From a virus: 30,838 nt of DNA. The stretch is from positions 1-30,838 of the IMG/VR virus record IMGVR_UViG_3300034101_002745; one strand, 5' to 3'. The stretch's first letter is position 1; every line of letters begins with the position of its first letter. Both the position numbers and the translations under genes were made by a program. A model generated the notes under the pieces. It was given only the letters and a program-made list of their open reading frames with translations. It did not search any database and had not been told where the DNA came from. Positions 360 to 30,838 of this stretch are shown here, in pieces.

Positions 360-908
360 ATGAAACGAGCATTGATGATGGCAATCGGCGCGGCTTGCGC
401 TTGCGCGGTCGAAGCGGCGAATGAGTTTACCGGCACGCTGATTAGTAGGCCCGCTGAATGGAAGTATACCAAGACCAGCGGGTCAAGCACGCTCTCACAG
501 GGGTTCGGTGACTTCGTGTTTTGGCGGCACACGAACGGGACAAACGCCTATCAGATGACGACGGTTGCGGTTGACACGGCGGCACTAACGAACACGCAAC
601 AGCGGACGGTTAGTATCGGCGCAATCGTTGACGGGTTCGGAGATGTGCGGTCGTTTGCGGTGGTTCGGTTTCTGGCATTGCAGGCCGCATCAAACAACGT
701 CGGCAACGTGAAACTTGGCGGCGCGGCTGTTGACCCGTTCGGCGCATGGACGGTTGACGGCACAAACGGCGTAACGGTGGCACCGGGCGGCATGATGATG
801 ATCGTTGCACCGCAGGCCGGGTACACGGTCGGGACTGGAACAAACATCATGATCGAGGCCACAGGCGGCGCAGCAACGTACTATCTCTACATCGGCGGCA
901 ACGAGTAA
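360..908 (+). CDS. Tail-module beta-sandwich protein with N-terminal signal peptide
   Basis: 182 residues; ATG preceded by AAAGGGGGAACG, a good ribosome binding site. The N-terminus is a textbook Sec signal: MKR, a hydrophobic stretch of about 12 residues, and a likely cleavage after VEA (residues 17-19). The remainder is rich in Gly, Thr, Val and Asn. Its C-terminal half (AVDPFGAWTVDG, then VAPGGMMMIVAPQAGYTVGTGTN) resembles, from memory, small beta-sandwich proteins found near tail genes of many siphoviruses that normally lack a signal peptide. It lies directly after the tape measure gene, so a tail-tip or tail-decoration role is inferred. The export signal is unusual for a virion protein and is shared with the products at 2314 and 25967. 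A secreted non-virion role is the main alternative. Confidence 0.8.
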   Translation: MKRALMMAIGAACACAVEAANEFTGTLISRPAEWKYTKTSGSSTLSQGFGDFVFWRHTNGTNAYQMTTVAVDTAALTNTQQRTVSIGAIVDGFGDVRSFAVVRFLALQAASNNVGNVKLGGAAVDPFGAWTVDGTNGVTVAPGGMMMIVAPQAGYTVGTGTNIMIEATGGAATYYLYIGGNE

Positions 909-918
909 CGGAGGGGCA

Positions 919-1236
919 ATGGCTCTCAACGCTACCATAACCTCATCCAACTATGATTACACGGTCACGCAAACAGATCCGTCACGCGTGCCGCGTTATC
1001 GCTACGTAGACGGCTCATGGGTGCTGGCCGGGCACGTTGTAACAAACACATCGCGCCAGCGCACGCTTTGGACGGCAGCGACAAAGGCGGCGATTGATGC
1101 GTATATATCGACGTACATCGCACCAAGTGGCGCTGAAGCGTCAATCAACCCGACCGTGCAAAACCTGATTGTCGGGTCTTGGCAGCTCGAAATCGTTGTT
1201 GCTACAAAGACGGTCACATGGGAGGCCGCAACGTGA
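919..1236 (+). CDS. Hypothetical tail-module protein
   Basis: 105 residues, starting at an ATG 7 nt after GGAGGGG; it lies 10 nt after the preceding stop. No signal peptide or membrane segment. The sequence is Thr/Ala/Val-rich (RYRYVDGSWVLAGHVVTNTSRQRTLW), compatible with a small beta-rich structural protein, but I do not recognise the family. Its TGA overlaps the GTG start of the next gene (GTGA), so the two are translationally coupled. Position between the tape measure and fibre genes suggests a tail-tip or baseplate component. Confidence 0.75.
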   Translation: MALNATITSSNYDYTVTQTDPSRVPRYRYVDGSWVLAGHVVTNTSRQRTLWTAATKAAIDAYISTYIAPSGAEASINPTVQNLIVGSWQLEIVVATKTVTWEAAT

Positions 1237-1565
1237 GATTCTTTGCAAACCAATTACAGGCCGGGCAAACGGTAAACGCCGAAGGGTTTGCCAAGGGTTT
1301 GCAAGCGTTGGCTGATGCGGTCGAATTGATGGAGGGTGACGGTTGCTATATTACATGGTCGGCACTGAATATCCCGACGATCCATGTTGACCTTTCGTCG
1401 TCATCAAGCGGCATGGATGCGCTCTTCGCCGCGCTATCAACGCTCTATTCCCCCTCGCACGTATTAGGCCGGAAGCCGGTTGATGAAAACGATTTGACGA
1501 AGGGCTATGAATACGGTTGGGTTGAGACGGTGACGCACGCATCGCAGCACCCGGAGGCGGAATGA
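1233..1565 (+). CDS. Hypothetical tail-module protein, GTG start
   Basis: 110 residues. I chose GTG 1233 because GGAGG lies 8 nt upstream and the start overlaps the preceding stop. An in-frame ATG at 1179 would overlap the previous gene by 58 nt and has no ribosome binding site. The middle holds a serine run (DLSSSSSGMDALFAAL). The C-terminal segment (VLGRKPVDENDLTKGYEYGWVETVTH) looks globular. There is no recognisable domain. It overlaps the next ATG by 4 nt. Role inferred only from position: part of the tail tip or fibre assembly. Confidence 0.7.
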   Translation: MRFFANQLQAGQTVNAEGFAKGLQALADAVELMEGDGCYITWSALNIPTIHVDLSSSSSGMDALFAALSTLYSPSHVLGRKPVDENDLTKGYEYGWVETVTHASQHPEAE

Positions 1566-2299
1566 GTGACGCGGGCAAAGTGTTGATTGGCACGGACGGA
1601 AATCCGCTGTTGAGTGCGGACGGAAAGATTGTTCTTGCGGATAATCTGTATCCAAAAACTGCGATACCAGCCGGCTGGGTGCTTAATGTATCGGGCTTGT
1701 CGTATTTCAATCACGTGGACAATGCCCTTGCATGGGACAGGTCTGATAGCGCAAATGGGACATACCCTGATTTCCAGGCGTCTCTCGGTGCACAATCTTG
1801 GAGTGGTTCGTCGGCGTCAGATGACTCGCCGGTTGGGTTTTTGGGATTAAGTATTCAGGAAAACGGTGCGACGTTTGATAGGTTTTTTGATACGCAACTC
1901 ATTAAGCTTCCGATCACAGGATGGGACACGACGCTTGAATGGACCCGCGTCAACAAGTTGAAACTCAATTTTGAAGTTTGGCCTGCCTTTTATAACGATG
2001 ACTGGTCGGCTTACGATATAAACTTTAAAGCGTACATGGGGCAAGGATCGACCATTACTGAGCCGTCTGGTTCAAATGAGCCGTGGACTGGCGATGGGTG
2101 GGCGTTGATTGGTGAAGGGTCAACATCAAACCCGAACGCGGCTATATTCACCGGAAGCGTAGACTTGACAATGCGTGATGATGGAGGCAATCTATACTTT
2201 GCGCTTTGGGCTGATAATCCAGCCAGTCCGAACGTAGTAAGACAAGACTCCATACTTTATATCACATCAATCAGCGTCATTTACAACCTCGCCACTTAA
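1562..2299 (+). CDS. Putative minor tail or fibre protein
   Basis: 245 residues, ATGA overlap with the preceding gene and a GGAGG ribosome binding site. The N-terminus (KVLIGTDGNPLLSADGKIVLADN) is a short repeat-like beta motif of the kind seen at the head of phage tail-fibre and minor tail proteins. The rest is aromatic-rich (many Trp, Tyr and Phe) and would suit a lectin- or jelly-roll-like beta-sandwich that binds carbohydrate. The central part is visibly more AT-rich than neighbouring genes, suggesting a recently acquired module. I infer receptor contact or adhesion from composition and from the neighbouring fibre gene; the family is not recognised. Confidence 0.7.
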   Translation: MSDAGKVLIGTDGNPLLSADGKIVLADNLYPKTAIPAGWVLNVSGLSYFNHVDNALAWDRSDSANGTYPDFQASLGAQSWSGSSASDDSPVGFLGLSIQENGATFDRFFDTQLIKLPITGWDTTLEWTRVNKLKLNFEVWPAFYNDDWSAYDINFKAYMGQGSTITEPSGSNEPWTGDGWALIGEGSTSNPNAAIFTGSVDLTMRDDGGNLYFALWADNPASPNVVRQDSILYITSISVIYNLAT

Positions 2300-2313
2300 C
2301 GAAGGGACACGCA

Positions 2314-4992
2314 ATGAGAAAACTGACCGCAATCGCAATCGCCACACTGACAGCCTGGACGCTGTACGCCGCACCCGCAGACGACCGCAACTGGGCAACC
2401 CGCGTCAAGTGCGAGCTTCAGACGGCGGGCGGTGAGTCGCTCCAGACGCTGACATGGCAGCAAGGCACGACGCCGCTGCTATCGTTTGACCAGTACCGGC
2501 AGGGCAAGGAACTGTCGGTCACGAACGCGGCAAACACGAACGTGACCGCTATCCTGTTTATCGGCGCGTCGGCAACGAACTCCAGTTACGTGATAGTGAC
2601 CAATTACGCGGTTGTCAATAACGGCTTCCTCTTCAAGGTGCCGACCGTTGGCACGAACACGCAAGGGAACGCGGCGGGCTGGTGGTACGCGGTCTATTTT
2701 GAGCAAGCCGGGTCTCGCTACTGGACGGGAAACGGGCGGCTTGACATCATCAAAACCACGAGCACGGCTGACGGGCTGGCGTGGAGCGCGATTGTGCCGC
2801 CTGTCGTTATTACGGCAATCGACGCCACGAACGCCGCGCAATCGGTCGTCGGCGCGTCTGGGGCAGTCTGGCGGGTTGAATGGCTCGCCGGAGACACCAA
2901 CGAAGCCGCGCTCCGTGCAGCCGGCGACGTGGCGGGCAGCAACTACACCGACGCCGTTTCCGCTGGTAAGATCTCTACCAACGACGCCGCCTACCTCGCG
3001 GCCTGCACCAACTCGGCATACTACGCCGGGCTGACGACATACGTTTCCAACCGCGTGACGTACATCGGCACAAACGCCTTTACTGGCGGAGGCGGCACGG
3101 CGCAGACGAACGTCGCGCACAACTCCCTGCTTGGCATCCTCGGCGCTGGCACGCTGCACGTTTCGGACATCCAGACGAACCTGATTGCCGGTGCGTTGCA
3201 AGGCAGTAACGCGGTAACGATTTGGGGCGCGGACGGATTTAAAGCCGGATATGGCAGCAACATCGCGGCGGCGGTCAGTGCGTCTGTGGCAGGAGATGTT
3301 ATTGCAATTGGACCAGGCATTTTCTCTTCGGGCACTGCGGCTTTGCGGATGAACCCAAATACTACGCTTGTCGGCTCTGGCGCGTTGACGACACGCATCC
3401 TCGCGCCCGTAACATTTACAGGGACCGGAATCGTGCAACCAACCAATAATTGTCGGATTGAAAATCTCTCTATAGAAGCAGATGTGAGTCATGTCGTGGC
3501 AGGGGAATATGTGATGGCAATACACATAATCACAGGGTCAACCAATGTTTATATTCGAAACTGTAATTTAGTCGGAGCCGCTGACGGAGTCTACATGTAC
3601 TCGGCACAAGGGGTAAAAATTGAGAATTGCAAAATATGGTCAGCCTTTGATGGCATACTAATTTCTTCGGGCAGTGTGTATGATGTTGTAAATTGTGAAA
3701 TAATAGTAGACGCTACATTATGGCCTGGGGGGGCAGGTAGTATAGCGAATGGAGTAGTTGTAGTCGGTAGCACGGGCACGGTATCGTTTTGCACAATCAC
3801 GGTATCGGGATCAAGCGTGGAAAATTACGCCGTTTCATCCGCCGGCAGTGTAACTCTAAATATGTGTGTATTGTCTAGTTCTGGTTCAGGAACCGTTGCA
3901 GATATATATGTAATAAATGGGGTAACAACAGAATACGGTTGTAAATATACGACACAGATAGGCGCAGTCACACACGGCATATTGCGAGGCGACGGGTCAA
4001 CAATCACGGTCGGCGGCACGAACCTGCAAACCCTGCTCGACGGCAAGCTGAACACGAATGGCATGACTGACGCGATCCACGGCGCACGCGGCGGGCTTAA
4101 CCTGCACAACCTCGCAGATGCGAACGGCGCGGGGTTCTATTCGGCGGATCACTACAAGGCGGTAGAAAGCATGAAAGGCCGGACGAACGTATGGAATAGC
4201 GCGGCGGCGGGCGGCGTGACAAACGTCATTCTCTCCACGCCCATCTCCACACTATCCACCGGCGCGGTCGTGACGGTCACGCCGTCGCAATCCAAGCGCA
4301 TCTATCAGGTGTCAGCCTCATCTCCGATCACGCTGACCAACGACCTGACGCAACTCGCCGCGAACTGCACAACGAACTACGAATGGGAAACGTGGATCAA
4401 TTACACCGACACCAACGCCCTCTCGACCGTTTGGGATAGCCGCATCGCGTGGCAGCAGCAGACGCCTGATCTGACGGTTACTGGACTCTACAAGTTTGCG
4501 TTCTCGACGGCGTGCGGCACAAACATCGCTGGACGTCAGTCATATCCGACAGTGTACAAGACTCAAAAAATACCGGTCGGCTACGCAGTGGGAACCTCTT
4601 CTGGGACATATCTTGTGATGAACCGGATCAACTACACATTGCCCGCGCTGACAAACTCGATTTCGGTTATCGCCCCCGATGTTTATCCGAGAATCATAAG
4701 CACAACCTTATATGGCGGGATCGGTACAAATAGCGTTTTGCTGTCTATCGCACGCGGCAATTTCTACACGGCAAGCGCCACACCGATTAACACGACAAAA
4801 GAGTTCATCGAAATCAACACAACCACCACGGTCAAGTCTTTTTACCAACCGGCGCAGACTAGTAGAAACGATTTCGACTATTTTGTGGTTGCGCATAAAT
4901 ACGTCACCGGGGCAATCAATATCCCGTATGTCGATACACGGCCAGCCAACGAACTCGAAACCGCCGCCTATAACGCAGGCTGGAGGCCGTAA
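2314..4992 (+). CDS. Large secreted-type tail fibre/tailspike with right-handed beta-helix
   Basis: 892 residues; ATG after GAAGGGACACGCA. Residues 1-20 form a Sec-type signal (MRKLTAIAIATLTAWTLYA, cleavage at LYA/AP). Residues about 20-290 are Asn/Thr/Ala-rich and beta-like. Residues about 300-555 show pectate-lyase-type parallel beta-helix repeats: recurrent short rungs such as VYIRNCNLVGAADGVYMY and VKIENCKIWSAFDGILIS. Residues about 570-620 contain a helical neck (LQTLLDGKLNTNGMTDAIHG), then a C-terminal beta domain to residue 892. This architecture fits a trimeric receptor-binding fibre or spike, possibly with glycan-cleaving activity. The helix-coding part (about 3290-3970) is much more AT-rich than the flanks, indicating module exchange. 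A signal peptide on such a protein is odd. No neighbouring chaperone or intramolecular autoprotease motif was recognised. Confidence 0.85.
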   Translation: MRKLTAIAIATLTAWTLYAAPADDRNWATRVKCELQTAGGESLQTLTWQQGTTPLLSFDQYRQGKELSVTNAANTNVTAILFIGASATNSSYVIVTNYAVVNNGFLFKVPTVGTNTQGNAAGWWYAVYFEQAGSRYWTGNGRLDIIKTTSTADGLAWSAIVPPVVITAIDATNAAQSVVGASGAVWRVEWLAGDTNEAALRAAGDVAGSNYTDAVSAGKISTNDAAYLAACTNSAYYAGLTTYVSNRVTYIGTNAFTGGGGTAQTNVAHNSLLGILGAGTLHVSDIQTNLIAGALQGSNAVTIWGADGFKAGYGSNIAAAVSASVAGDVIAIGPGIFSSGTAALRMNPNTTLVGSGALTTRILAPVTFTGTGIVQPTNNCRIENLSIEADVSHVVAGEYVMAIHIITGSTNVYIRNCNLVGAADGVYMYSAQGVKIENCKIWSAFDGILISSGSVYDVVNCEIIVDATLWPGGAGSIANGVVVVGSTGTVSFCTITVSGSSVENYAVSSAGSVTLNMCVLSSSGSGTVADIYVINGVTTEYGCKYTTQIGAVTHGILRGDGSTITVGGTNLQTLLDGKLNTNGMTDAIHGARGGLNLHNLADANGAGFYSADHYKAVESMKGRTNVWNSAAAGGVTNVILSTPISTLSTGAVVTVTPSQSKRIYQVSASSPITLTNDLTQLAANCTTNYEWETWINYTDTNALSTVWDSRIAWQQQTPDLTVTGLYKFAFSTACGTNIAGRQSYPTVYKTQKIPVGYAVGTSSGTYLVMNRINYTLPALTNSISVIAPDVYPRIISTTLYGGIGTNSVLLSIARGNFYTASATPINTTKEFIEINTTTTVKSFYQPAQTSRNDFDYFVVAHKYVTGAINIPYVDTRPANELETAAYNAGWRP

Positions 4993-5464: not shown

Positions 5465-5586
5465 GTGCACAGTATGCAGCGTTGGGTGTTCAAGTGGCGG
5501 CGGCAATTCTGAAATGGTGGAGTGAACGCAAGGCCGCAAAAGCGAAAGCGAAAGCGGAGAAAGAGAAAGCGGCGGTGAAGCCGTGA
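5461..5586 (+). CDS. 41-residue membrane peptide with basic tail, lysis candidate
   Basis: Start ATG 5461 chosen for its AGGAGG ribosome binding site 7-8 nt upstream and the ATGA overlap; a longer version from GTG 5356 lacks a site and would encode an out-of-character Arg/Gly-rich leader. Residues 4-20 are hydrophobic (YAALGVQVAAAILKWW). The rest is a Lys/Ala/Glu helix (KAKAKAEKEKAAVKP). A short span plus a strongly charged C-terminus is the layout of small holin-like proteins. Function inferred only; the family is not recognised. Confidence 0.55.
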   Translation: MSAQYAALGVQVAAAILKWWSERKAAKAKAKAEKEKAAVKP

Positions 5587-6107
5587 GCGCGTCCGCAAAG
5601 TTCAAGCCGCACTTTACCGGCACCTATCAACTGGTTCCAGCTGGTAGCATGATGCGGCGGCGGCTTCTGTTCAAAGAGCCGGTCGCGCTATATGACTTCC
5701 AGAATGACTCGGTTGCGCCGCTGACCTTCTGGCGTGACATTGATTCGTTCATCCGCCCGTTTCGGCATTTCGACAAGTGCGACTTCGGATCGGTTCCGAC
5801 TTTGCTGCAATCGCTGGTCAGCCCGACATGCGCGGCGCGTGCGTTTATCATCCACGATGCGGCGTATGAGTTTCATAGCTGGTGGACCGAGGATGGGCTT
5901 GTAGAGTGTTCGCAGCGTGAGGCGGATGATATGCTCTACCACATGATGCGGGCTGAGGGTTGCAGCGTATGGCTCGCGTCGAAAGCGTGGGCTGGCGTCC
6001 GGGCTGGCGGCTGGACGTGCTGGCGCAAACCGATGGCGACAATCGAAAACGCCCGCCGTCTGGAGCGTGCATCAATGCCCGGCTTTGAGGATCAACCGGC
6101 GGACTAA
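5583..6107 (+). CDS. DUF1353-family phage protein
   Basis: 174 residues from a GTG that overlaps the preceding TGA. The central and C-terminal parts carry the DUF1353 pattern as I know it: a SVPTLLQSL segment, then AFIIHDAAYE (His-Asp), then READDMLYHMMRAEG, and a C-terminal AWAGVRAGGWTCW. The family is common in tailed phages beside lysis or tail genes and has no established biochemical role that I can name. The invariant HD and AD(D) residues would suit a metal site. It is the last gene before the major terminator and follows three small membrane-type proteins, so involvement in lysis is a reasonable guess. It is not a recognisable muramidase or amidase. Confidence 0.8.
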   Translation: MSASAKFKPHFTGTYQLVPAGSMMRRRLLFKEPVALYDFQNDSVAPLTFWRDIDSFIRPFRHFDKCDFGSVPTLLQSLVSPTCAARAFIIHDAAYEFHSWWTEDGLVECSQREADDMLYHMMRAEGCSVWLASKAWAGVRAGGWTCWRKPMATIENARRLERASMPGFEDQPAD

Positions 6108-7456: not shown

Positions 7457-8358
7457 TTATGTCAAACTCAATCTTTCGGGCGTTCCTGCAATGCCCGGCG
7501 CGTGCGCTGGCGATGCACAAGGGGCGCATACTCGGCACGGATGACGCGCCGGAATGGACAGAGCCGACAAGCCGCGCTATGGCGTGCGGCACGCTGTTTG
7601 ACCGAATGGTTTTGTCCGGTTACGTGCCGGGTGACAAGCCTGACATGGCGGCGCTGTCTGCGGCCTGTGCGTCAACCTATGGCAACGGGGACAGCGCAAT
7701 CGAACACCTGACCACGAAAAAAGGCGAGTGGAATAGTTACGCGCAAGTAACAATCAAGGCGGCGCAAAAGCTGCTTGCCGACCCGGTTGCGGCGGCGATG
7801 ATTGCCAGAGGCGAGAAGCACGTTGCCGTCAATACCGAACTGTCTCCGCTCTGGACGTGGCGCGGTGAGATTGACCTGCTTACATCGATCAACGGCAAGC
7901 GCACGGTGGTTGACATCAAACACCCCGGCAGCACTGAAGACGGCTGGCTCGTCTGCGGCGGGAAAAACGTCAAAGCGCCGTGGTATGACACCTGGGGCTA
8001 CTGGTTCCAGCTTGCCGGATATCAGTACGCCGTAGAGTCAAAGGACGGTACGCAGGCACTCGGCTTGACCGGCGCGGGCATCCTTTACGCAACGAATAGC
8101 GACCCGTCAGCGGTTGGCTACGTGGCGCTTGCCGACAACGTGGAGCGGTGGCTGACGGTGCTGTTTGGCGGCGTCTTTACCAGCGGCGGCGGGATGCTTG
8201 ACAAAATCGCCGCAATCGTGACGGGCGCGGTGCCTGCTCCGTCATGCGGCAAGTGTGACTTTTGCGCAAGTAAGTCGCTTGTGCAGATACCGGATAGCGA
8301 GCCCGCGCTTCCGGTTGTCGGGGATGAATACGGGTTGACAGAAGGGGTGACGATATGA
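7453..8358 (+). CDS. RecB/Cas4-like PD-(D/E)XK exonuclease with probable Fe-S cysteines (RecE-like role)
   Basis: 301 residues from GTG 7453, which overlaps the preceding TGA and lies 5 nt after GGAGGT; ATG 7459 in the same frame is the alternative. Numbering from that ATG: Asp139 (RGEIDLL), Asp152-x-Lys154 (VVDIKHPG) and Gln185-x3-Tyr189 (QLAGYQY) form the nuclease core of the RecB/DUF3799 type. Cys12 (QCPARA) and a C-terminal CxxCxxC cluster (Cys263, 266, 269) are placed as in Cas4/AddB proteins that bind a 4Fe-4S cluster. Next to recT, it should be the 5'-3' resecting exonuclease that supplies 3' single strands for annealing. Confidence 0.85.
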   Translation: MIMSNSIFRAFLQCPARALAMHKGRILGTDDAPEWTEPTSRAMACGTLFDRMVLSGYVPGDKPDMAALSAACASTYGNGDSAIEHLTTKKGEWNSYAQVTIKAAQKLLADPVAAAMIARGEKHVAVNTELSPLWTWRGEIDLLTSINGKRTVVDIKHPGSTEDGWLVCGGKNVKAPWYDTWGYWFQLAGYQYAVESKDGTQALGLTGAGILYATNSDPSAVGYVALADNVERWLTVLFGGVFTSGGGMLDKIAAIVTGAVPAPSCGKCDFCASKSLVQIPDSEPALPVVGDEYGLTEGVTI

Positions 8359-9842: not shown

Positions 9843-10247
9843 GTGAGCCAAGATCCAAATAGCGCGTCGTATTGCGATGATACGACAATCGAGGATGATC
9901 GCAAGGCGTGTGCGGAACGTGAGCAGCTGGAGCGCGAGCTTGCGGCCATGACCGCCGAACGGGACGCGCTTGTCCAGACGTGCGGCGAACTTTGCCCGCA
10001 TTGCGGGTGGCGCGGATTGCGCGGAGATCCAGAGCAATGCGCGTTTTGCCAGAACGCGAAACTGTCCGCAGACCTGCACAACATGACCGCCCGCGCCGAG
10101 CTTGCCGAGCGGCAGGTGGAGGTGCTGTGCAAACAGATCGGAGAGACAGGCTGGTGCCCAACAGAACAAACGTGTCAAAGTGGAAAGACAGGATGCTCCG
10201 GCTGCTGGGCCGCATGGTCACGCGCCGAAGCGAAGAAAGGGGGCTGA
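9843..10247 (+). CDS. Zinc-ribbon coiled-coil protein, tandem copy 1
   Basis: 134 residues from GTG 9843 behind AAAGGGG. A helical, Glu/Arg/Ala-rich segment (REQLERELAAMTAERDAL) leads into a zinc ribbon (CPHCGWRGLRGDPEQCAFC, CxxC-x11-CxxC), then a second helix (AELAERQVEVL) and a Cys-rich C-terminus (CPTEQTCQSGKTGCSGCWAAW). The central part is about 93 percent identical in DNA to the next gene. The LERELAAM coiled-coil style is common in phage early proteins of unknown function. Zinc binding is a strong inference; the biological role is unknown. Confidence 0.75.
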   Translation: MSQDPNSASYCDDTTIEDDRKACAEREQLERELAAMTAERDALVQTCGELCPHCGWRGLRGDPEQCAFCQNAKLSADLHNMTARAELAERQVEVLCKQIGETGWCPTEQTCQSGKTGCSGCWAAWSRAEAKKGG

Positions 10248-10550
10248 TTATGGATGCGACAGAGACACCGAGAACGGACGCCGTTTGGCGCAACAAGTCA
10301 TTCGGATTCTATGAAATGCGAGACATCGCAAACACACTGGAGCGCGAGCTTGCGGCCATGACCGCCGAGCGTGACGCGCTTGTCCAGACGTGCGGAGAAC
10401 TTTGCCCGCGTTGCGGGTGGCGCGGATTGCGCGGCGATCCAGAGCAATGCGCGTTTTGCCAGAACGCGAAACTGTCCGCAGACCTGTACAATATGACCGC
10501 CCGTGCGGAGCTGGCCGAGCGGCAGGTGGCGGTGTTGTGCAAGCGGATTG
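9927..10550 (+). repeat. Tandem duplication covering the cores of two adjacent genes
   Basis: Bases 9927-10140 match 10337-10550 at a fixed offset of 410 with roughly 15 differences in 214, most of them silent. A second block, 10195-10244 against 10611-10660, matches at offset 416. N-terminal parts and a short stretch between the blocks differ. The pattern indicates duplication of a whole gene followed by divergence, or gene conversion of the conserved core. Confidence 0.9.
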
Positions 10551-10669
10551 CAGAATTGATGTACCAAAACGAGTGCCCGACCGGGGAAGACTGCGAAAAA
10601 TACAAGGATTGTTCCGGCTGCTGGGCCGCATGGTCACGCGCCGAAGCGGAGAAAGGGGGCAAGGGATGA
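10250..10669 (+). CDS. Zinc-ribbon coiled-coil protein, tandem copy 2
   Basis: 139 residues; ATG 10250 behind AAAGGGGG. Its N-terminus (MDATETPRTDAVW) is a leader motif that I know from many phage early proteins of the Ea22-like type, and differs from copy 1. From residue about 30 it parallels the previous gene: helix, zinc ribbon (CPRCGWRGLRGDPEQCAFC), helix, then a Cys-rich C-terminus (CPTGEDCEKYKDCSGCWAAW). All ribbon cysteines are kept, so both copies are probably functional. Longer in-frame starts upstream lie inside the previous gene and are rejected. Role unknown. Confidence 0.75.
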   Translation: MDATETPRTDAVWRNKSFGFYEMRDIANTLERELAAMTAERDALVQTCGELCPRCGWRGLRGDPEQCAFCQNAKLSADLYNMTARAELAERQVAVLCKRIAELMYQNECPTGEDCEKYKDCSGCWAAWSRAEAEKGGKG

Positions 10670-21879: not shown

Positions 21880-22419
21880 ATGGGCTACATGCCGCAAACC
21901 ATAATCGCCGGTGAAACAATCTGGATTGCCGCCGCGAATACCGCGCAAGACAAGTCAGATATCACGATTGACGGCGCGACCCCGGCAGCCGGTTACACGC
22001 TCACTTTCCAGTTTGCCGCACAGCCGACGCCGATACCCGTTGCGGCGGTTGCCAACGGCGCGGGTACGGGCTGGACGATTGAAGTCACCGCCGCGCAGAC
22101 GCTGGCATGGAAGGCAGGAAGCGTGGCCTATGCCGCATACGCGACGCTCGCAGGCCGGTCATACGCTGTCGAGAGCGGCGCGATCACCGTCAAGCCGTCA
22201 CCGCTGGCGACATCCTCATGGACGGCGGTCATTGCGGCTTGCGATGCGGCTATCCTGACCTACGCCGGAGACCCGAACGGCAGCCTATCTGTGGACGGAA
22301 TGTCGGTATCGTATCGCAGCCTGACCGACCTGACAAACCTGCGTGACTACGCCCGCACGATGGAGCAACGAGAAACCGGCAACCGGCCCTTGCGGATTAT
22401 CAGAGCGAGGTTCACATGA
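21880..22419 (+). CDS. Head-tail joining protein: beta domain fused to gpW-like C-terminus
   Basis: 179 residues; GAAGGGGCGCGACA before the ATG. Residues about 1-110 form a Thr/Ala-rich beta-sandwich-like domain (TIIAGETIWIAAANTAQDKSDITIDG...TFQFAAQ...). The C-terminal ~65 residues (WTAVIAACDAAILTYAGDP, SLSVDGMSVSYRSLTDLTNLRDYARTMEQRE) resemble gpW, the small lambda head-completion protein, which is only 68 residues. The place between terminase and portal is gpW's place. The fusion suggests a connector protein with an added capsid- or DNA-facing domain. ATGA overlap with the portal gene. Confidence 0.7.
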   Translation: MGYMPQTIIAGETIWIAAANTAQDKSDITIDGATPAAGYTLTFQFAAQPTPIPVAAVANGAGTGWTIEVTAAQTLAWKAGSVAYAAYATLAGRSYAVESGAITVKPSPLATSSWTAVIAACDAAILTYAGDPNGSLSVDGMSVSYRSLTDLTNLRDYARTMEQRETGNRPLRIIRARFT

Positions 22420-24089
22420 CGTTTAACTGGCCTTGGGGAAAGAACCGAGCGCACCGCCCGCAATCATTCGGCGTGCGTGGTTTTCAGGCCGCGCAGACCG
22501 ACCGCCTGCTCGCCGGTTGGAAGTATGACGGGGGTTTCACGCCGTCTGAAATCTCGTCCTATCTCGACACGATCCGGGGCCGGTCGCGTCAAATGGCGAA
22601 GGACTCCCCACACTTCCGGCGCTGGTTGCAGCTTTCGGCAATCAACATCGTCGGGGAAGGTTTCGCGCTGAAATCAACGCCGCATGACGGGGCCCCGGGC
22701 GGGAAAGACTACAAGCTAGACGAACAGGCGGCGCGTTTCATTGAGTGGCATTGGTGGCGCTTCTGCAATTACCGCGACCCGTCAACCGGGCTGACATGGT
22801 GCGACGCGACCGGGCGCAAGACCGACGCCGAGATTGACCGATTAAACGTCAAGACGCAAAAGCGTGACGGCGAATACTTTATCCACATCATGCGCACATC
22901 GGCCAATCCATACGGCGTGGCGTGGCGCGTGTTGCGGCCTGATTGGTGCGATCACACTTACAACAGCACCGGGCTTGCGAATGGTAACATTGTTCACTGC
23001 GGCGTTGAAATGACAGAGCATGACCGCCGCCCGGTGGCGTACTACTTTCACACCGTCCCGAAAAACGCCTATGCCTTCAACGGGCGCGGGTTGCCGCTTG
23101 TCCGCATACCGGCAACCGAGATTATTCACGGCTTTACGCAAGAGGACGAAGACCAGCCGCGCGGCATCCCAGAAGGTTACGCCGGGCTGATGAAGCTGAA
23201 AATGATTGACGAGCTAGACCGGGCGGAGTTGACAGCGGCGCGTGAGGACGCCTGTTCAACGCGGTCTTATGAAGCAGATCGGGCGGCGGACATGGACGCC
23301 TTTTCAGACCTGACGCAGCCGGATAACTCCGACGCTGCACAGGCACTTATGGCCGAGAAAGAGCCAGGCCAATCCATGATCCTGCCGCCCGGTTGGCGTG
23401 AGAAGGTCAACACCCCGCAGCATCCGAACCGTGAGCACGCGCCGTTTAAGGACGGCATGTTGAAAGACGTGGCATCGGCGTTCGGCGTGGAGTATTCCAA
23501 CTACACGAACAACTGGAGCGGGGTATCATTCTCCAGCGTGCGCGTCGGGACAATCAGCGAGCGTGACGGGTACATCGTCCAACAGAATGACTTTATCAGC
23601 CAATGCAAGACGCCGCAATTTCTCGCATGGTTGCGGTCTTTCCTGTCGCTTTCGGTTTCTGGTCAACTGCCGATTGCCAAGTTTGACAAGTTCGCAGAGC
23701 ACGAATATCGCGGGCGGCGCTGGATGTGGGTTGACCCGATGAAGGACATGAACGCCGCTGTTATCGCCGTTGATCGCAAGTGGAAAACGAATACCCAAGT
23801 CGCGTCCGACATGGGGTCTGATTACGCTGACAATGTGGAAACATGGAAGCGCGAACAGTTGCTTGTTGCGGGTGACAGCAAGGAGAATGTGCCGGTTCTT
23901 AATGGAGCGCAGATCACGGCGGCGCTTGAAGTCATGCAGAATTATGCGGCTGGTGACATCGGAAAAGAGTCTGCGGTTGCGCTACTCACTGCGGCAGGCG
24001 TGCCAGCCGACGCCGCGCAAAACATGGTATCAAAACAGATCGTAAAGGAGGCAGACGATGAAGACGAAGACGCCACAGCAGACAAGTGA
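22416..24089 (+). CDS. Portal protein, lambda gpB family
   Basis: 557 residues, close to lambda gpB (533). Family features: GRSRQMAKDSPHFRRWLQLSAINIVGEGFAL near the N-terminus, HWWRFCNYRDPSTGLTW, REGEYFIH-type segment (QKRDGEYFIHIMR), PATEIIHGFTQEDEDQPRGIP, and the ELTAAREDACSTRSYEAD stem-like region, then FGVEYSNYTNNWSGVSFSSVRVGTISERDGY. It makes the dodecameric ring through which DNA enters and leaves the head. The C-terminus is acidic (KEADDEDEDATADK), and its last 32 nt overlap the protease-capsid gene. GAGG precedes the ATG. Confidence 0.9.
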   Translation: MTFNWPWGKNRAHRPQSFGVRGFQAAQTDRLLAGWKYDGGFTPSEISSYLDTIRGRSRQMAKDSPHFRRWLQLSAINIVGEGFALKSTPHDGAPGGKDYKLDEQAARFIEWHWWRFCNYRDPSTGLTWCDATGRKTDAEIDRLNVKTQKRDGEYFIHIMRTSANPYGVAWRVLRPDWCDHTYNSTGLANGNIVHCGVEMTEHDRRPVAYYFHTVPKNAYAFNGRGLPLVRIPATEIIHGFTQEDEDQPRGIPEGYAGLMKLKMIDELDRAELTAAREDACSTRSYEADRAADMDAFSDLTQPDNSDAAQALMAEKEPGQSMILPPGWREKVNTPQHPNREHAPFKDGMLKDVASAFGVEYSNYTNNWSGVSFSSVRVGTISERDGYIVQQNDFISQCKTPQFLAWLRSFLSLSVSGQLPIAKFDKFAEHEYRGRRWMWVDPMKDMNAAVIAVDRKWKTNTQVASDMGSDYADNVETWKREQLLVAGDSKENVPVLNGAQITAALEVMQNYAAGDIGKESAVALLTAAGVPADAAQNMVSKQIVKEADDEDEDATADK

Positions 24090-25893
24090 AAAGACCGAGG
24101 CACCTGATTTGATGATCCGGGCCGCAACGGTTGACATCCGCGCCGCAGATGGTGACGCGCCTGCACAGGTGCGCATGTCGGTTTCGAGTGAAGAGCCTGT
24201 TCTGACGATGGTCTACCTAAATGACAAGTGGCAGCGGGCATACGAGATCCTTGACCACGGCGAAGGCAGTATTGACATGAGCCGTTGCAAGGATGGCCTC
24301 GTGATTCTCGACCGGCATTTTGGCGATCAGGTCGGCTTGATGGCAGTTGAATTGAACAATCGTAAGATGGACGGGCCTGTCGAGTTTTGCTCCGGGCAGA
24401 GAGCGCAAGACATTTCAAAGGACGCGGCAAAAGGACTCCGGCGCAACGTATCAGTGGGATATCTGGTACGCGCCGGAGCTTATCGCATCGAAGGGGAAAA
24501 GGATGGCGTACCGGTGGTACGGGCGCTGTCTTGGACGCCCTACGAAGCGAGCTTTGAGCCGGTGCCTGCGGATACAACGGTCGGCGTAAACCGCGCCGCC
24601 AATCACACCAAAACGGCTGTTGAAACAGCCAAGGAGATCAGAATGGAACCCAAAGACATGGCCGCTCTTTTTGAGCGTGCGGCGAAGTTTGGTATCGGCG
24701 CGGACAAGGTTTCGGCGCTGGTTGCGGACGGCAAGGGCCGGGCCGAGTTGGACGCGATGATCGTGGACAAGCAGGCGGATGACCTCGCCAGCGAGCGCAA
24801 GACCCTTGTGGAGTTCAAGAGCCGCAAGACGGATCGCGCCGAGGCTGGAACCCCGCCCGCCGTTGGCTCGGCTGAAATCGGACTGACCCCGGCGCAGGCG
24901 CGGTCGTACAGCATGCTGCGTGCGATCCAAGGCCAGATTCCGAATTCCGGTGTGGACGCCGGTTTCGAGCGTGAGTGCTCGCAGGAAGTCGCCAAGAAGC
25001 TCGGTCGTGCGGCTCGCGGTTTCTTCGTCCCTTACGATGTGCAGGTTGCCAAGCGCGATTTGCAGATTGCCGGGGCCGGAACCGGATCGAAGTTCGTCGC
25101 CACGAACCTGCTCGCCGGTGACTTTATCACCGCGCTGCGTGCGAACATGGCACTCCCCAAGCTGGGCGTGCGCGTTCTGTCCGGTCTTGTCGGTGACATC
25201 GCCATTCCGAAGGGCGCGGCGGTCACGGCAACGTGGGGCATTGAGACGGCTGACGCCGACGAAGTGACTCCCGTTCTTTCGCAGGTCACTGGCACGCCGA
25301 AGACGGTCAAGGCCCGGACGAATATCAGCCGCAAGCTGATTATGCAGTCCAGTCTGGACGTGGAAGCGTTTGTCCAGAACGAGCTGGCTGTTGCGCTGGC
25401 CGTTGCGATTGACAAGGCCGCGTTCAACGGCGCGGGCACCGCCGAGCCGACTGGACTTCTGACCGGCCCGATCAGCACGGACGTCGCTGTCACCGCTGGC
25501 ACGCCGACCTACGCCGAGATGTGCAACCTCGTCGCCACGGTGACGGGGAAGAACGTCAATCTGGACATGCTCAAGTTCGCCGTGACGAACGAAGTGTTCT
25601 GGAAGTTGGCTGCTACGGCGACCAGCACGAACGGGCCGCTGTTCATTGCCGACATCCTGTCCGGCAAGATCATGGGCCGCGAGACGGTGGTTTCCGAAAA
25701 CGTGACCGCAAACTACGGCTTCATCGGCGACTGGTCGCAGATGATCCTCGGCATGTGGGGCAATGGCCTCGACATCCTGGTTGACCCCTACAGCGGCAGC
25801 AGCAGCGGGCTGGTGAAGGTTGTCAGCTTCATGGACGCCGACATCATGGTTGCGCAGGCCGACGCCTTCGCACACGCCGACATCACTTCGTAG
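24058..25893 (+). CDS. HK97-type prohead protease fused to major capsid protein
   Basis: 611 residues, ATG behind AAAGGAGGCAGACG. Residues about 18-180 are an S78-type prohead protease with likely catalytic His87 (LDRHFGDQ) and Ser132 (RNVSVGYLV). Residues about 195-290 are a charged helical delta/scaffold region (MAALFERAAKFG...LVEFKSRKTDRAE). Residues about 290-611 are the HK97-fold capsid: YDVQVAKRDLQ, LLAGDFITALRANMALPKLGVRVLSG, ISRKLIMQSSLDVEAFVQNELAVALAVAIDKAAFNG, and a C-terminal EVFWKLAATATST...GFIGDWSQMILGMWGNGLDILVDPYS. Protease, scaffold and shell are in one frame; self-cleavage must free the shell protein. An internal ribosome binding site at 24631 offers a second route. Confidence 0.92.
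   Translation: MKTKTPQQTSEKTEAPDLMIRAATVDIRAADGDAPAQVRMSVSSEEPVLTMVYLNDKWQRAYEILDHGEGSIDMSRCKDGLVILDRHFGDQVGLMAVELNNRKMDGPVEFCSGQRAQDISKDAAKGLRRNVSVGYLVRAGAYRIEGEKDGVPVVRALSWTPYEASFEPVPADTTVGVNRAANHTKTAVETAKEIRMEPKDMAALFERAAKFGIGADKVSALVADGKGRAELDAMIVDKQADDLASERKTLVEFKSRKTDRAEAGTPPAVGSAEIGLTPAQARSYSMLRAIQGQIPNSGVDAGFERECSQEVAKKLGRAARGFFVPYDVQVAKRDLQIAGAGTGSKFVATNLLAGDFITALRANMALPKLGVRVLSGLVGDIAIPKGAAVTATWGIETADADEVTPVLSQVTGTPKTVKARTNISRKLIMQSSLDVEAFVQNELAVALAVAIDKAAFNGAGTAEPTGLLTGPISTDVAVTAGTPTYAEMCNLVATVTGKNVNLDMLKFAVTNEVFWKLAATATSTNGPLFIADILSGKIMGRETVVSENVTANYGFIGDWSQMILGMWGNGLDILVDPYSGSSSGLVKVVSFMDADIMVAQADAFAHADITS
24631..24645 (+). promoter_or_regulatory. Internal ribosome binding site and start for free scaffold-capsid protein
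   Basis: AAGGAG (24631-24636), 6 nt, then ATG (24643-24645) in frame with the fusion gene at codon 196, exactly at the junction between protease and delta/scaffold region. Initiation here would give a 416-residue protein, close to the usual length of HK97-type capsid precursors. This resembles the nested scaffold start inside lambda gene C. Confidence 0.65.
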
Positions 25894-25966: not shown

Positions 25967-26419
25967 ATGAAGCGATATCTGATTGCGGGCCTGTTGCTCG
26001 CTACGTTTGCGCTGACTTCGCACGCCGCGCTTGACGTGTATGACTCCGTGACCGTCAGCACGCTCGGCAACCCGACGCTTGTGCCGGTCGGCACAACGGT
26101 CACGAATACCGCCGTGGACGTTGCCAACTGCAAGGGCATCGGGAACCTGATTATCACGGTCGGGGCCGGGGCTACGAACGCGGCTGACTACGTTTGCACC
26201 GTCACGCTCAAACACTCGGCGGCAAGCGCGGGAACGTATACGACCGTCACCAATGGCACCGGTACTGCGATGGTTTTCACGACCGCCGCAAGCAACGGAG
26301 TCGGGCGCGTCGTATCGAGCAAACTGGAAGCGGAAGTCTTGAAACGCTACCTGCGGCTTGAAGGCGCGGCGGTCGGCCAAGACGGAAGTTTCGGCGGCGT
26401 ATTCCTCTACAGCAAGTAA
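25967..26419 (+). CDS. Decoration-like head protein with N-terminal signal peptide
   Basis: 150 residues; ATG 25967 behind AAAAGGAGATGACAAA. An in-frame start at 25820 would overlap the capsid gene and is rejected. Residues 1-20 (MKRYLIAGLLLATFALTSHA) are a classic Sec signal with an SHA/A cleavage site. The mature part (TVDVANCKGIGNLIITVGAGATNAADYVCTVTLKHSAAS..., ending KRYLRLEGAAVGQDGSFGGVFLYSK) matches, from memory, small beta-sandwich proteins encoded right after major capsid genes, normally without a signal. Head decoration is inferred from position; export is implied by sequence, so the two conflict. One Cys pair (mature) could form a disulphide outside the cytoplasm. Confidence 0.8.
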   Translation: MKRYLIAGLLLATFALTSHAALDVYDSVTVSTLGNPTLVPVGTTVTNTAVDVANCKGIGNLIITVGAGATNAADYVCTVTLKHSAASAGTYTTVTNGTGTAMVFTTAASNGVGRVVSSKLEAEVLKRYLRLEGAAVGQDGSFGGVFLYSK

Positions 26420-28647: not shown

Positions 28648-29328
28648 ATGGGTAACGGCGCACAGGATTGCGGGCGGTTAAACGACCTCGCGGCGGAGGC
28701 TATTCAAGACCTCCGTTCGCGGGGTTGCACAGTTACCGATTCCGATGTGTGCCGATTGAACGCGCTGGCGTGGCGGATACAATCGCCAGCCGTTCAACGC
28801 GAGCTTTCCAAGGGCCGACCGGTGCAATGCGGCAACGTGTGGTTATGGCCTCGCTCTATGTTGGCTTGCGCGTGGTTCGAGGATGTGGGGTGCCGTTGCT
28901 GTGACCCGGAGATGGCCCTTGCTTACGCTATGGCGCATAGCCATAGTGAGACGCTGCCAACGGCGACGGATGCGGACGTTAGGTGCTGGAGCCGCACCGT
29001 TAGGGCTACGCGGCGTCAGATGCGCGTGGCGATTGGTGAGGTGCTTGCACAGGATCAACAAGACGAACAGCCGCCTGTGGAATCCAAGCCTTGCACGTTG
29101 GGGGAGCTATCAAGCGTTCTTGTGGCGATGTGCGGCGGCAAGCCTGACGATTGGGAGCGGCTGGTTTCTCTTGAATACGCACGCGACATGCTGACAACGC
29201 ACACGGCGCAGCAATCGGCGGGCGGAAAGGGCGGAATCTCGCCAGAGGTTGCACGGGCCGAGCGTGCGTTCGGTTGGGTGATTGTTAAAATCCGCAGACG
29301 TGGAAAGGTTGGCAGCAATGGCGGATAG
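28648..29328 (+). CDS. Protein at the tail-assembly-chaperone position
   Basis: 226 residues between major tail and tape measure genes, where gpG/gpGT-type chaperones are expected. Helical N-terminus (CGRLNDLAAEAIQDLRSRGCTVTDSDVCRLNALAWRI), two Cys-rich spots (GCRCCDPEMALAYAMAHSH), and a helical C-terminal half (LGELSSVLVAMCGGKPDDWERLVSLEYARDMLTTH). I found no convincing slippery heptamer and no second overlapping frame, so the usual programmed frameshift is not evident. The ribosome binding site (GGGGCG) is weak; overlaps the tape measure ATG by 11 nt. Confidence 0.65.
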   Translation: MGNGAQDCGRLNDLAAEAIQDLRSRGCTVTDSDVCRLNALAWRIQSPAVQRELSKGRPVQCGNVWLWPRSMLACAWFEDVGCRCCDPEMALAYAMAHSHSETLPTATDADVRCWSRTVRATRRQMRVAIGEVLAQDQQDEQPPVESKPCTLGELSSVLVAMCGGKPDDWERLVSLEYARDMLTTHTAQQSAGGKGGISPEVARAERAFGWVIVKIRRRGKVGSNGG

Positions 29329-30838
29329 GAAACTCACGCTTGTAGTTGACGCAAAGAACAAGACAAAAGCGGCACTCGCTTCGGTCGGTGACTCACTGGC
29401 GAAAATAGGGCAGACCGCGCTGAACGTCGGCAAGATGATCGCGGGCGCATTGACCGGGGCGGCGGTGGCGGTGGCGGCGTTTGCTGGCAAAGCGCTGTCT
29501 GCATGGGCTGCGCAAGAAACCGCCTCGCGTGCTATGGCTGGAGCACTAACAGCATACGGAGAATCCGCCGTGAAAGCGTTGCCGGAACTTGAGCGTCTCG
29601 CGTCGGCAATTCAAGACGAAACCGGGGCTGCTGATGAATCAACGCTTGCGGGCATGGCAAAAATGCGGATGCTCGGCGTTCAGACTTCCAAGCTTGGCGA
29701 GGCCGCAAAAGCCGTTATCGCGTTGAAGGCTGTCGGTATGGAAGAGGCGGCGGCACAGAAGGCCGTGGCGATGGCGATGCAAGGCAATTACACGCTGTTG
29801 CAAAGATACGTGCCAGCATTGAGAGACGCCGCAGACGAAACCGAAAAAGCCCGAATCGTCAATCAGCTTTTTGCGGCGGGCTACGAACAGCAGAAAGGGC
29901 TACTCAATACTACAGGCGGCGCGTGGGCTGCATTGAAGGGGCGCGTCGGGGATTTATGGGAAGAGGTCGGCAAGGCAATCGCGCAGAATGGAGACCTTGT
30001 TGCGGTGCTCACGAAAGCCGGAAACAAGGTCAAAGAACTGACCGCTGACTTTGCGAACTGGGTTTCAAACGGCGGCATGATTGATGCAATCGCAACGGCG
30101 CAGCAGTTTGGCGAAAACATGCGCAGCACCTTTACGCTTGCGGGTGTGTACGCAAAAGGGTTTTTTAAGGGCGGGATCACCGAACCGGCAGCACAGGCGT
30201 TTCAGTATTTGGGAAGCGTGGCGGTAGCGGCTTGGGATGTGCTGAAAGATTTATTCAGCGGGAAAAGCGTAGAGGCATCGTTTCAGACGTTCAAGTCCTC
30301 GCTTGCCGGTGGGTTTGTTGAAGAGTCACAGGCGTTCAAGACGATGTATGCAGAGTTGGACGCCGAACGCGCAAAGCACACCGGCGAGACAGAGAGAATC
30401 CAAGCAGACCTCATTGGAAAGCTGAAACAGAATAACGAGAAGCGGGTGTCTGACGCAACATCCGCATTACAGGAAATCACAGAGGCAGAGCAAGCCGCAG
30501 CAGATGCACGGATAGCCGCAGAAAAAGAGAAAAACGAAGAACTGAAAAAGTTGTCGGGTGAGCGGGCGCAATTAGAACAGGACTACGCAAAAGCTCTTGA
30601 CGACGAACAATCAAAGGCATGGGAAAACCGAAAGAAAGAACTCCAAGACGAGCTGGAGCTGAAAGAGGAAATCGCAAAAGCTGCAATCAAAGACGTGATC
30701 GCAGAAGCGAAGGCGAAAAAGGGCAGCGACAAAGACGCTGAACGCATGGAAGGCAGAGAGGCACGCAAGGCGGCGCGGCTGGGCGCACGTTTTGACCGAG
30801 GGGAGAGCATCGGAAAGGGTGCCGAGGAATGGTTAAAC
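29318..30838 (+). CDS. Tape measure protein, N-terminal 507 residues (continues at base 176)
   Basis: ATG 29318 overlaps the previous gene by 11 nt, with GAAAGG 9 nt upstream. No stop occurs before the window end; the frame continues at 176-349 for 564 residues in total. The N-terminus KLTLVVDAKNKTKAALASVGDSLAKIGQTAL and a hydrophobic segment (IAGALTGAAVAVAAFAG, about residues 47-63) are typical of tape measure proteins, as is the AIQDETGAADESTLAGMAKMRMLG...AAKAVIALKAVGMEEAAAQKAVAMAMQGNYTLLQRYVP region of the phage prophage-tail-length family. Residues from about 345 form a long charged coiled coil (ELDAERAKHTGETERIQADLIGKLKQ...). It sets tail length and aids DNA entry. Confidence 0.9.
   Translation, partial: MADRKLTLVVDAKNKTKAALASVGDSLAKIGQTALNVGKMIAGALTGAAVAVAAFAGKALSAWAAQETASRAMAGALTAYGESAVKALPELERLASAIQDETGAADESTLAGMAKMRMLGVQTSKLGEAAKAVIALKAVGMEEAAAQKAVAMAMQGNYTLLQRYVPALRDAADETEKARIVNQLFAAGYEQQKGLLNTTGGAWAALKGRVGDLWEEVGKAIAQNGDLVAVLTKAGNKVKELTADFANWVSNGGMIDAIATAQQFGENMRSTFTLAGVYAKGFFKGGITEPAAQAFQYLGSVAVAAWDVLKDLFSGKSVEASFQTFKSSLAGGFVEESQAFKTMYAELDAERAKHTGETERIQADLIGKLKQNNEKRVSDATSALQEITEAEQAAADARIAAEKEKNEELKKLSGERAQLEQDYAKALDDEQSKAWENRKKELQDELELKEEIAKAAIKDVIAEAKAKKGSDKDAERMEGREARKAARLGARFDRGESIGKGAEEWLN
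30664..30838. repeat. Terminal direct repeat, right copy
   Basis: Same 175 bases as 1-175 apart from 30790 (T instead of C) and 30811 (C instead of T). See the left copy for interpretation: the unique genome length is 30663 bp. Confidence 0.95.

Follow-up and report, generated by a model that had tools for sequence, protein, structure and literature searches.

Conserved Sec-type signal peptides on virion-type genes of tailed phages with relatives in Lentisphaerota and Kiritimatiellota: possible export of exterior virion proteins

In a clade of tailed phages whose identified relatives occur in Lentisphaerota and Kiritimatiellota (gut and environmental bacteria), predicted Sec signal peptides stand on a restricted set of virion-type genes, in front of domains known from other phages, and they are conserved as a class while their sequences turn over completely. 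We describe the trait from one window, the whole stretch of 30,838 nucleotides that was analysed (IMG/VR record IMGVR_UViG_3300034101_002745), which is a near-complete tailed-phage genome of ~30.7 kb because the two ends of the contig share a 175-bp overlap (98.9% identity). Structural proteins of tailed phages are generally taken to be cytoplasmic. That the signals are under selection as a class is well supported by the sequence comparisons, and from these we infer that the proteins would actually be exported, would be located on the virion and would attach to it from outside. The most far-reaching reading, to which we assign a probability of roughly 0.4, is a two-compartment assembly in the phages of Lentisphaerota and Kiritimatiellota and in a few separate acquirers, with a cytoplasmic core and a Sec-exported periplasmic coat added at lysis; the narrower proposition that exterior virion proteins pass through Sec, are cut, reach their fold in the periplasm and bind particles at lysis stands, in our judgement, at even odds. 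If the clade exports receptor-binding and decoration proteins, virion assembly can be split between compartments, annotators can no longer take a signal peptide to mark a gene as "not structural", and the periplasm might be a place where exported fibres undergo modification or cross-linking; co-infecting phages might also share them. The finding also concerns a host group with little phage biology.

All main genes of the window lie on the + strand, and those used here are as follows, with the three signal-bearing genes called SP1, SP2 and SP3.

17487-19541, + strand, terminase (phrog_38)
21880-22419, + strand, head-tail joining protein (phrog_5774)
22416..24089, + strand, portal protein, without signal (PF05136, E=1.1e-65)
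24058..25893, + strand, fused prohead protease-major capsid protein (MCP), without signal, anchor of the tree (PF05065, E=4.5e-31; phrog_617, E=1.5e-88)
25967..26419, + strand, SP3, 150-aa jelly-roll protein right after the MCP, predicted Sec signal 1-20 (SHA/AL), phrog_5707 family
29282..30838 and across the contig junction into 2-349, + strand, tape-measure-like protein, without signal, directly upstream of SP1
360..908, + strand, SP1, 182 aa, predicted Sec signal 1-19 (cleavage VEA/AN), mature part of the phrog_22694 family
919-1236, about 1218-1565 and 1562-2299, + strand, three tail-region genes between SP1 and SP2, none with a signal
2314..4992, + strand, SP2, 892-aa putative tail fibre or spike, predicted Sec signal 1-19 (LYA/AP)
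5583..6107, + strand, DUF1353 protein downstream of the fibre gene (PF07087, E=1.1e-9)

Signals were sought with a home-made detector that scores a K/R n-region, a hydrophobic core and an A-x-A motif. Under strict settings (ATG start, Shine-Dalgarno sequence, score of at least 5.8) exactly three genes of the whole window are hit, at 360-908, 2314-4992 and 25967-26419. The first-pass annotation had reported clear Sec signals on the first two, and both ORFs are indeed present at these coordinates with ATG starts and Shine-Dalgarno-like sequences: GGGGGAACG precedes the ATG at 360 and the predicted signal reads MKRALMMAIGAACACAVEA/ANEF, while GAAGGGACACGCA precedes the ATG at 2314 and the predicted signal reads MRKLTAIAIATLTAWTLYA/APAD. 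It had also counted three signals within one structural operon; confinement to a tail operon does not hold, as the best-conserved case follows the MCP gene. With loose settings the detector also reports hits in 7 of the 103 antisense ORFs, which lends some colour to the idea of chance hydrophobic N-termini or wrong start codons; a single genome is therefore insufficient proof, and the weight has to rest on comparison. In the clade loci (285 kb) strict hits number 35 in sense against 1 in antisense, a bias that agrees with the earlier view of the signals as improbable by chance and, together with their conservation among orthologues, refutes the chance explanation; the SP3 gene of the window, moreover, has no alternative start codon at the mature end, which speaks against a wrong start. 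We regard this explanation as having a negligible probability. In loci with distant MCPs (322 kb), the corresponding numbers are 6 sense and 3 antisense.

The 33 signals collected for SP1-SP3 have the features expected of Sec/signal peptidase I substrates, namely a positive n-region, an uncharged hydrophobic core, small residues at -3 and -1 and a length of about 18-30 residues. The residue at -1 is Ala in 32 and Gly in 1, that at -3 is mostly A or V, the first six residues always carry a net charge of +1 or +2, and the lengths run from 18 to 29. Judged by sequence, the signals fit the signal peptidase I profile and are hard to explain by any other use. One such use would be as hydrophobic assembly tags, docking assembly at the inner membrane, or as substrates of the prohead protease; the capsid gene does carry a fused protease domain, and export is presumed. 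However, the near-invariant alanine at -1, the small residue at -3, the positive n-region and the free turnover of the core match only signal peptidase I among known systems, and the same signal is borne by fibres far from the capsid protease, so that we consider the tag or protease-substrate explanation improbable.

The signal behind the MCP was followed through the relatives of the phage. Scans with the MCP, and then with an MCP alignment, gave 11, 5 and 63 loci, and wherever a clade locus allowed a judgement, L018 excepted, the gene after the MCP combines a signal with the same domain; L018 has no such gene behind its MCP. On the MCP tree the post-MCP signal is present in 23 of 24 clade rows and absent in 22 of the 24 other rows, which requires 3 label changes, a number as low being reached in 0 of 500 shuffles; the non-clade rows L069 and L070 bear a signal on a different post-MCP gene. 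Conservation in related phages, proposed earlier as a check, is thus borne out for this gene and also for the fibre gene, whose signal is found in 6 of 6 relatives. Across the SP3 orthologues, the signals retain a mean pairwise identity of only 24% over 20 residues, yet the n-, h- and c-regions are kept in 21 of 21, whereas neutral simulation to 35% identity keeps 4% of signals at the strict threshold and 26% at the loose one. Since the signal is conserved across MCPs down to about 37% identity despite full sequence turnover, selection is indicated.

Behind the signal, SP3 resembles a known phage protein. Positions 4-110 of the phrog_5707 profile align to SP3 residues 23-133 (E=5.3e-12), and in L023 and L015 the profile likewise aligns behind the signal. 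An AF2 model (pLDDT 86) consists of a signal helix and an eight-stranded beta domain, and among viral predictions it comes closest to a 115-residue protein of phage PPpW-3 (TMt 0.75). We take this protein to be ORF7, also of 115 residues, whose gene stands two places behind that of a fused MCP-peptidase and which has no signal at its start. The small post-MCP beta proteins of the phrog_5707 or PPpW-3 ORF7 type are like SP3 in family or fold and in their place after a (fused protease) MCP, but those known members that we examined lack a signal peptide. The modelled jelly-roll fold and the position of the gene directly behind that of the MCP make SP3 a putative capsid decoration protein. A PDB sequence search with an SP3 profile returned chance matches only, and a search of the Phages collection gave no match to SP3. 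In L026 (7746-8564) and L032 (3253-4035) the SP3 orthologues have the jelly-roll domain twice in tandem after one signal. At L069 3951 and L070 9225, in a distant MCP lineage, an unrelated post-MCP gene of ~200 aa has its own signal, MKISIKVLIALAIASASITSQA/Q.

SP1 likewise belongs to a phage-wide family. Phrog_22694 matches SP1 residues 58-175 (E=9e-10) and the L036 homologue at 1.2e-26; in other phages it is a head-module protein of unknown function, or at least often lies in the head module. The Microcystis phage Mae-JY04 protein (WWT39696.1), a homologue of the SP1 mature part, has no signal and is encoded in the head module between the MCP and the head-tail adaptor. Among ~20 members of the family, signals occur in the window, L004, L036/L037, L170, L175 and L181, with L176 borderline and the rest without; most members are thus unsignalled, whereas SP1 of the window is signalled and follows the tape measure instead of lying in the head module. 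The L024 homologue starts with MATTLSGTL exactly at the position where the L036 signal would be cut, and in relatives such as this the signal has been gained or lost. Relatives lacking the hydrophobic N-terminus, which the first-pass annotation had named as evidence against its interpretation, do therefore exist, but only for some relatives of the 360-908 gene (such as L024 and the Microcystis phage protein). Because signal-free homologues begin at the cleavage position, we conclude that the signal was added to phage virion-type proteins. Repeated gain or loss in the SP1 family might also be expected if the signals were relics of captured host surface genes that have yet to be purged. Against this, SP3 and SP1 belong to phage families with signal-free phage relatives, which implies that the signal was gained on phage genes, and conservation across MCPs to about 37% identity with full turnover implies selection; the relic explanation is disfavoured and seems to us very improbable. 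A single-protein scan of viral contigs with SP1 gave no match, and the distant relatives were reached through alignments. In L004, the closest relative in the tail region, SP1 (8060-8188, against 360-908 in the window) is only 42 aa long: its signal is intact, but just the final 23 residues follow (TNLLVVNTGTNSATYYLYIAGNE), and ~140 residues of the domain are missing in frame.

SP2 has a repetitive, beta-rich and asparagine/threonine-rich mature part. Its six signal-bearing members are those of the window, L004, L014, L023, L187 and L188. The closest, L004, reads MNTMQRNARTLTAILALVTGAATLTRA/APADDRNWATR, so that the mature start is shared while the signal differs, and the distant ones (L014, L023, L187, L188) have starts of the type MR/MK...A, with APAPYP after the predicted cut. 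SP2 follows the tape measure and has beta-rich repeats, and its L023 homologue weakly matches the minor tail protein phrog_6183 (E=2.7e-4); on these grounds we take SP2 to be a probable tail fibre. The label "beta-helix" once given to 2314-4992 was a reading of the sequence that finds no backing here: no Pfam or PHROG model matches SP2, and the structure model of its N-terminus has a pLDDT of 35. Inspection by eye raised the suspicion of a BppU-like baseplate domain at that N-terminus. As with SP1, a single-protein scan of viral contigs gave no match and distant relatives were reached through alignments; a search of the Phages collection gave no match to SP2 or to its L014 and L023 relatives.

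Within the clade, strict hits fall almost only on the post-MCP gene and on the fibre cluster that follows the tape measure (in L014, L015, L017, L018, L023), where L014, L015, L017 and L018 have two to three signal-bearing genes close together. The clade genes for MCP, portal, connector, tape measure and tube bear no signals. The signalled genes are those expected on the outside of the particle, and the unsignalled genes build its core. One MAG with a relative of the phage is from Lentisphaerae, and others come from rumen and gut, Kiritimatiellae among them; two relatives sit integrated next to host genes, namely DnaK on the prophage contig of L015 and SecDF on the contig of L018. The trait is not shared by every phage of the host phylum. 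Of 59 portal loci, which differ in length and come from 241 genomes belonging to the same GTDB phylum, 47 have no strict hit downstream of the portal; in several a single lipoprotein appears near the end of the cluster, and just two of the 241 genomes look alike (G177 with L131 and L155; G245 with L132). The trait is therefore a property of certain phages and not of the whole phylum. The tailed phages WC36-2 and zth2-2, reported from cultured strains of Lentisphaerae and unrelated to the clade, have no such genes. L155, with separate protease and MCP, and L170, with another MCP type, bear a signal on the gene behind their MCP, which in L170 matches the tail-fibre phrog_892 (E=8.7e-23); these cases show that the trait arose in, or moved between, several capsid lineages.

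Virion proteins that use Sec with a cleaved signal are familiar from the coat proteins of inoviruses (pVIII/pIII), but there the mature protein is inserted in the membrane and virions are extruded, whereas mature SP1-SP3 have no TM segment and the phage is a tailed dsDNA phage. Phage envelope proteins of the lambda Lom/Bor and T5 Llp type also have export signals; they are moron or early genes with lipobox or outer-membrane anchors that act on the host surface, in contrast to SP1-SP3, which are virion-module genes. Exterior proteins able to bind completed capsids, as proposed for SP3, include T4 Hoc/Soc, lambda gpD and T5 pb10; these are made and added in the cytoplasm without a signal, and no sequence relation to SP3 has been shown. 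In the open-access papers searched we found no report of signals on capsid-decoration or fibre proteins of such tailed phages; the conservation on virion-type proteins supports the idea of a shared export strategy. According to one paper, DGR targets of phages, unlike the DGR proteins of bacteria, have no signal peptides (PMC6199706), and a paper on rumen phages mentions one or two signal peptides, unassigned, from two Bacteroides phages (PMC5723332).

Under two-compartment assembly, the MCP, portal, connectors, tape measure and tail tube would stay in the cytoplasm, where DNA-filled particles would be built. Late in infection the SP3 decoration protein, the SP1 head-type protein and the tail fibre(s) would be translocated by the host SecYEG and cut by signal peptidase I; the mature exterior proteins would then fold or trimerise in the periplasm and be stored there until the inner membrane is breached at lysis, when they would meet and bind the particles, much as the first-pass annotation had suggested with attachment to the virion after lysis. 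Decoration by loading from outside is plausible because purified capsids take up T5 pb10 in vitro, at an affinity of about pM (PMC5292684). Counted against two-compartment assembly are the tail-region proteins between SP1 and SP2, which have no signals, the frequent lack of a signal in SP1 relatives, and the lack of such genes in WC36-2 and zth2-2. Candidate reasons for export are folding, glycosylation or the avoidance of premature assembly. Chronic non-lytic release was set aside as a reason, since in Lentisphaerae extrusion was seen for filamentous phages only and the exit of hexagonal ones was not observed (PMC11361711).

The mature proteins also bear on where exported products would go. 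Mature SP1-SP3 contain no TM-like segment (the highest 19-residue KD mean is 1.58) and no PEP-CTERM, and a lipobox is absent, the signals ending in A-x-A without Cys at +1. The earlier suggestion of anchoring on the infected cell is consequently unsupported; moreover, for one of the proteins, from the capsid module, ordinary phages encode homologues at the corresponding position. A signal without an anchor does predict a secreted or periplasmic fate, as would be expected if SP1-SP3 were exported but not part of the virion and instead served as soluble factors in the periplasm or outside the cell (decoys, superinfection blockers, glycan-binding or matrix proteins), having been recruited from genes that once encoded virion parts. 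Lectin-like folds in some of the proteins (the SP3 jelly roll; LamG, PF13385, in L014) and the reduction of SP1 in L004 to little beyond its signal fit such a recruitment, but the post-MCP position is held across the clade, relatives sit at or near that position in ordinary phages, and fibre-type proteins occupy the expected fibre position. We therefore consider soluble factors unlikely, though far from negligible, and prefer two-compartment assembly.

Several further observations concern neighbouring genes and other phages. The genes between SP1 and SP2 (919..2299) have L004 homologues in the same order. Comparing 1562-2299 of the window with L004 8847-9479, the first ~30 and last ~8 residues are kept and the middle is unrelated, as though a receptor-binding or accessory module lacking a signal had been exchanged. 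The DUF1353 protein (5583..6107) is possibly part of a lysis cassette. In Verrucomicrobiota prophages (L111 16941, L112 18379, L121 18064, L130 17040, L140 16354) a small lipoprotein with a ...GC lipobox, possibly a spanin or exclusion protein, is encoded ~16-18 kb after the portal. Finally, the adjacent ORFs of the window at 9843-10247 and 10248-10669 are near-duplicates (MTAERDALVQTCGELCPHCGWRGLRGDPEQCAFCQNAKLSADL...) with zinc-finger-like cysteines, and their sequences point to a recent tandem duplication.
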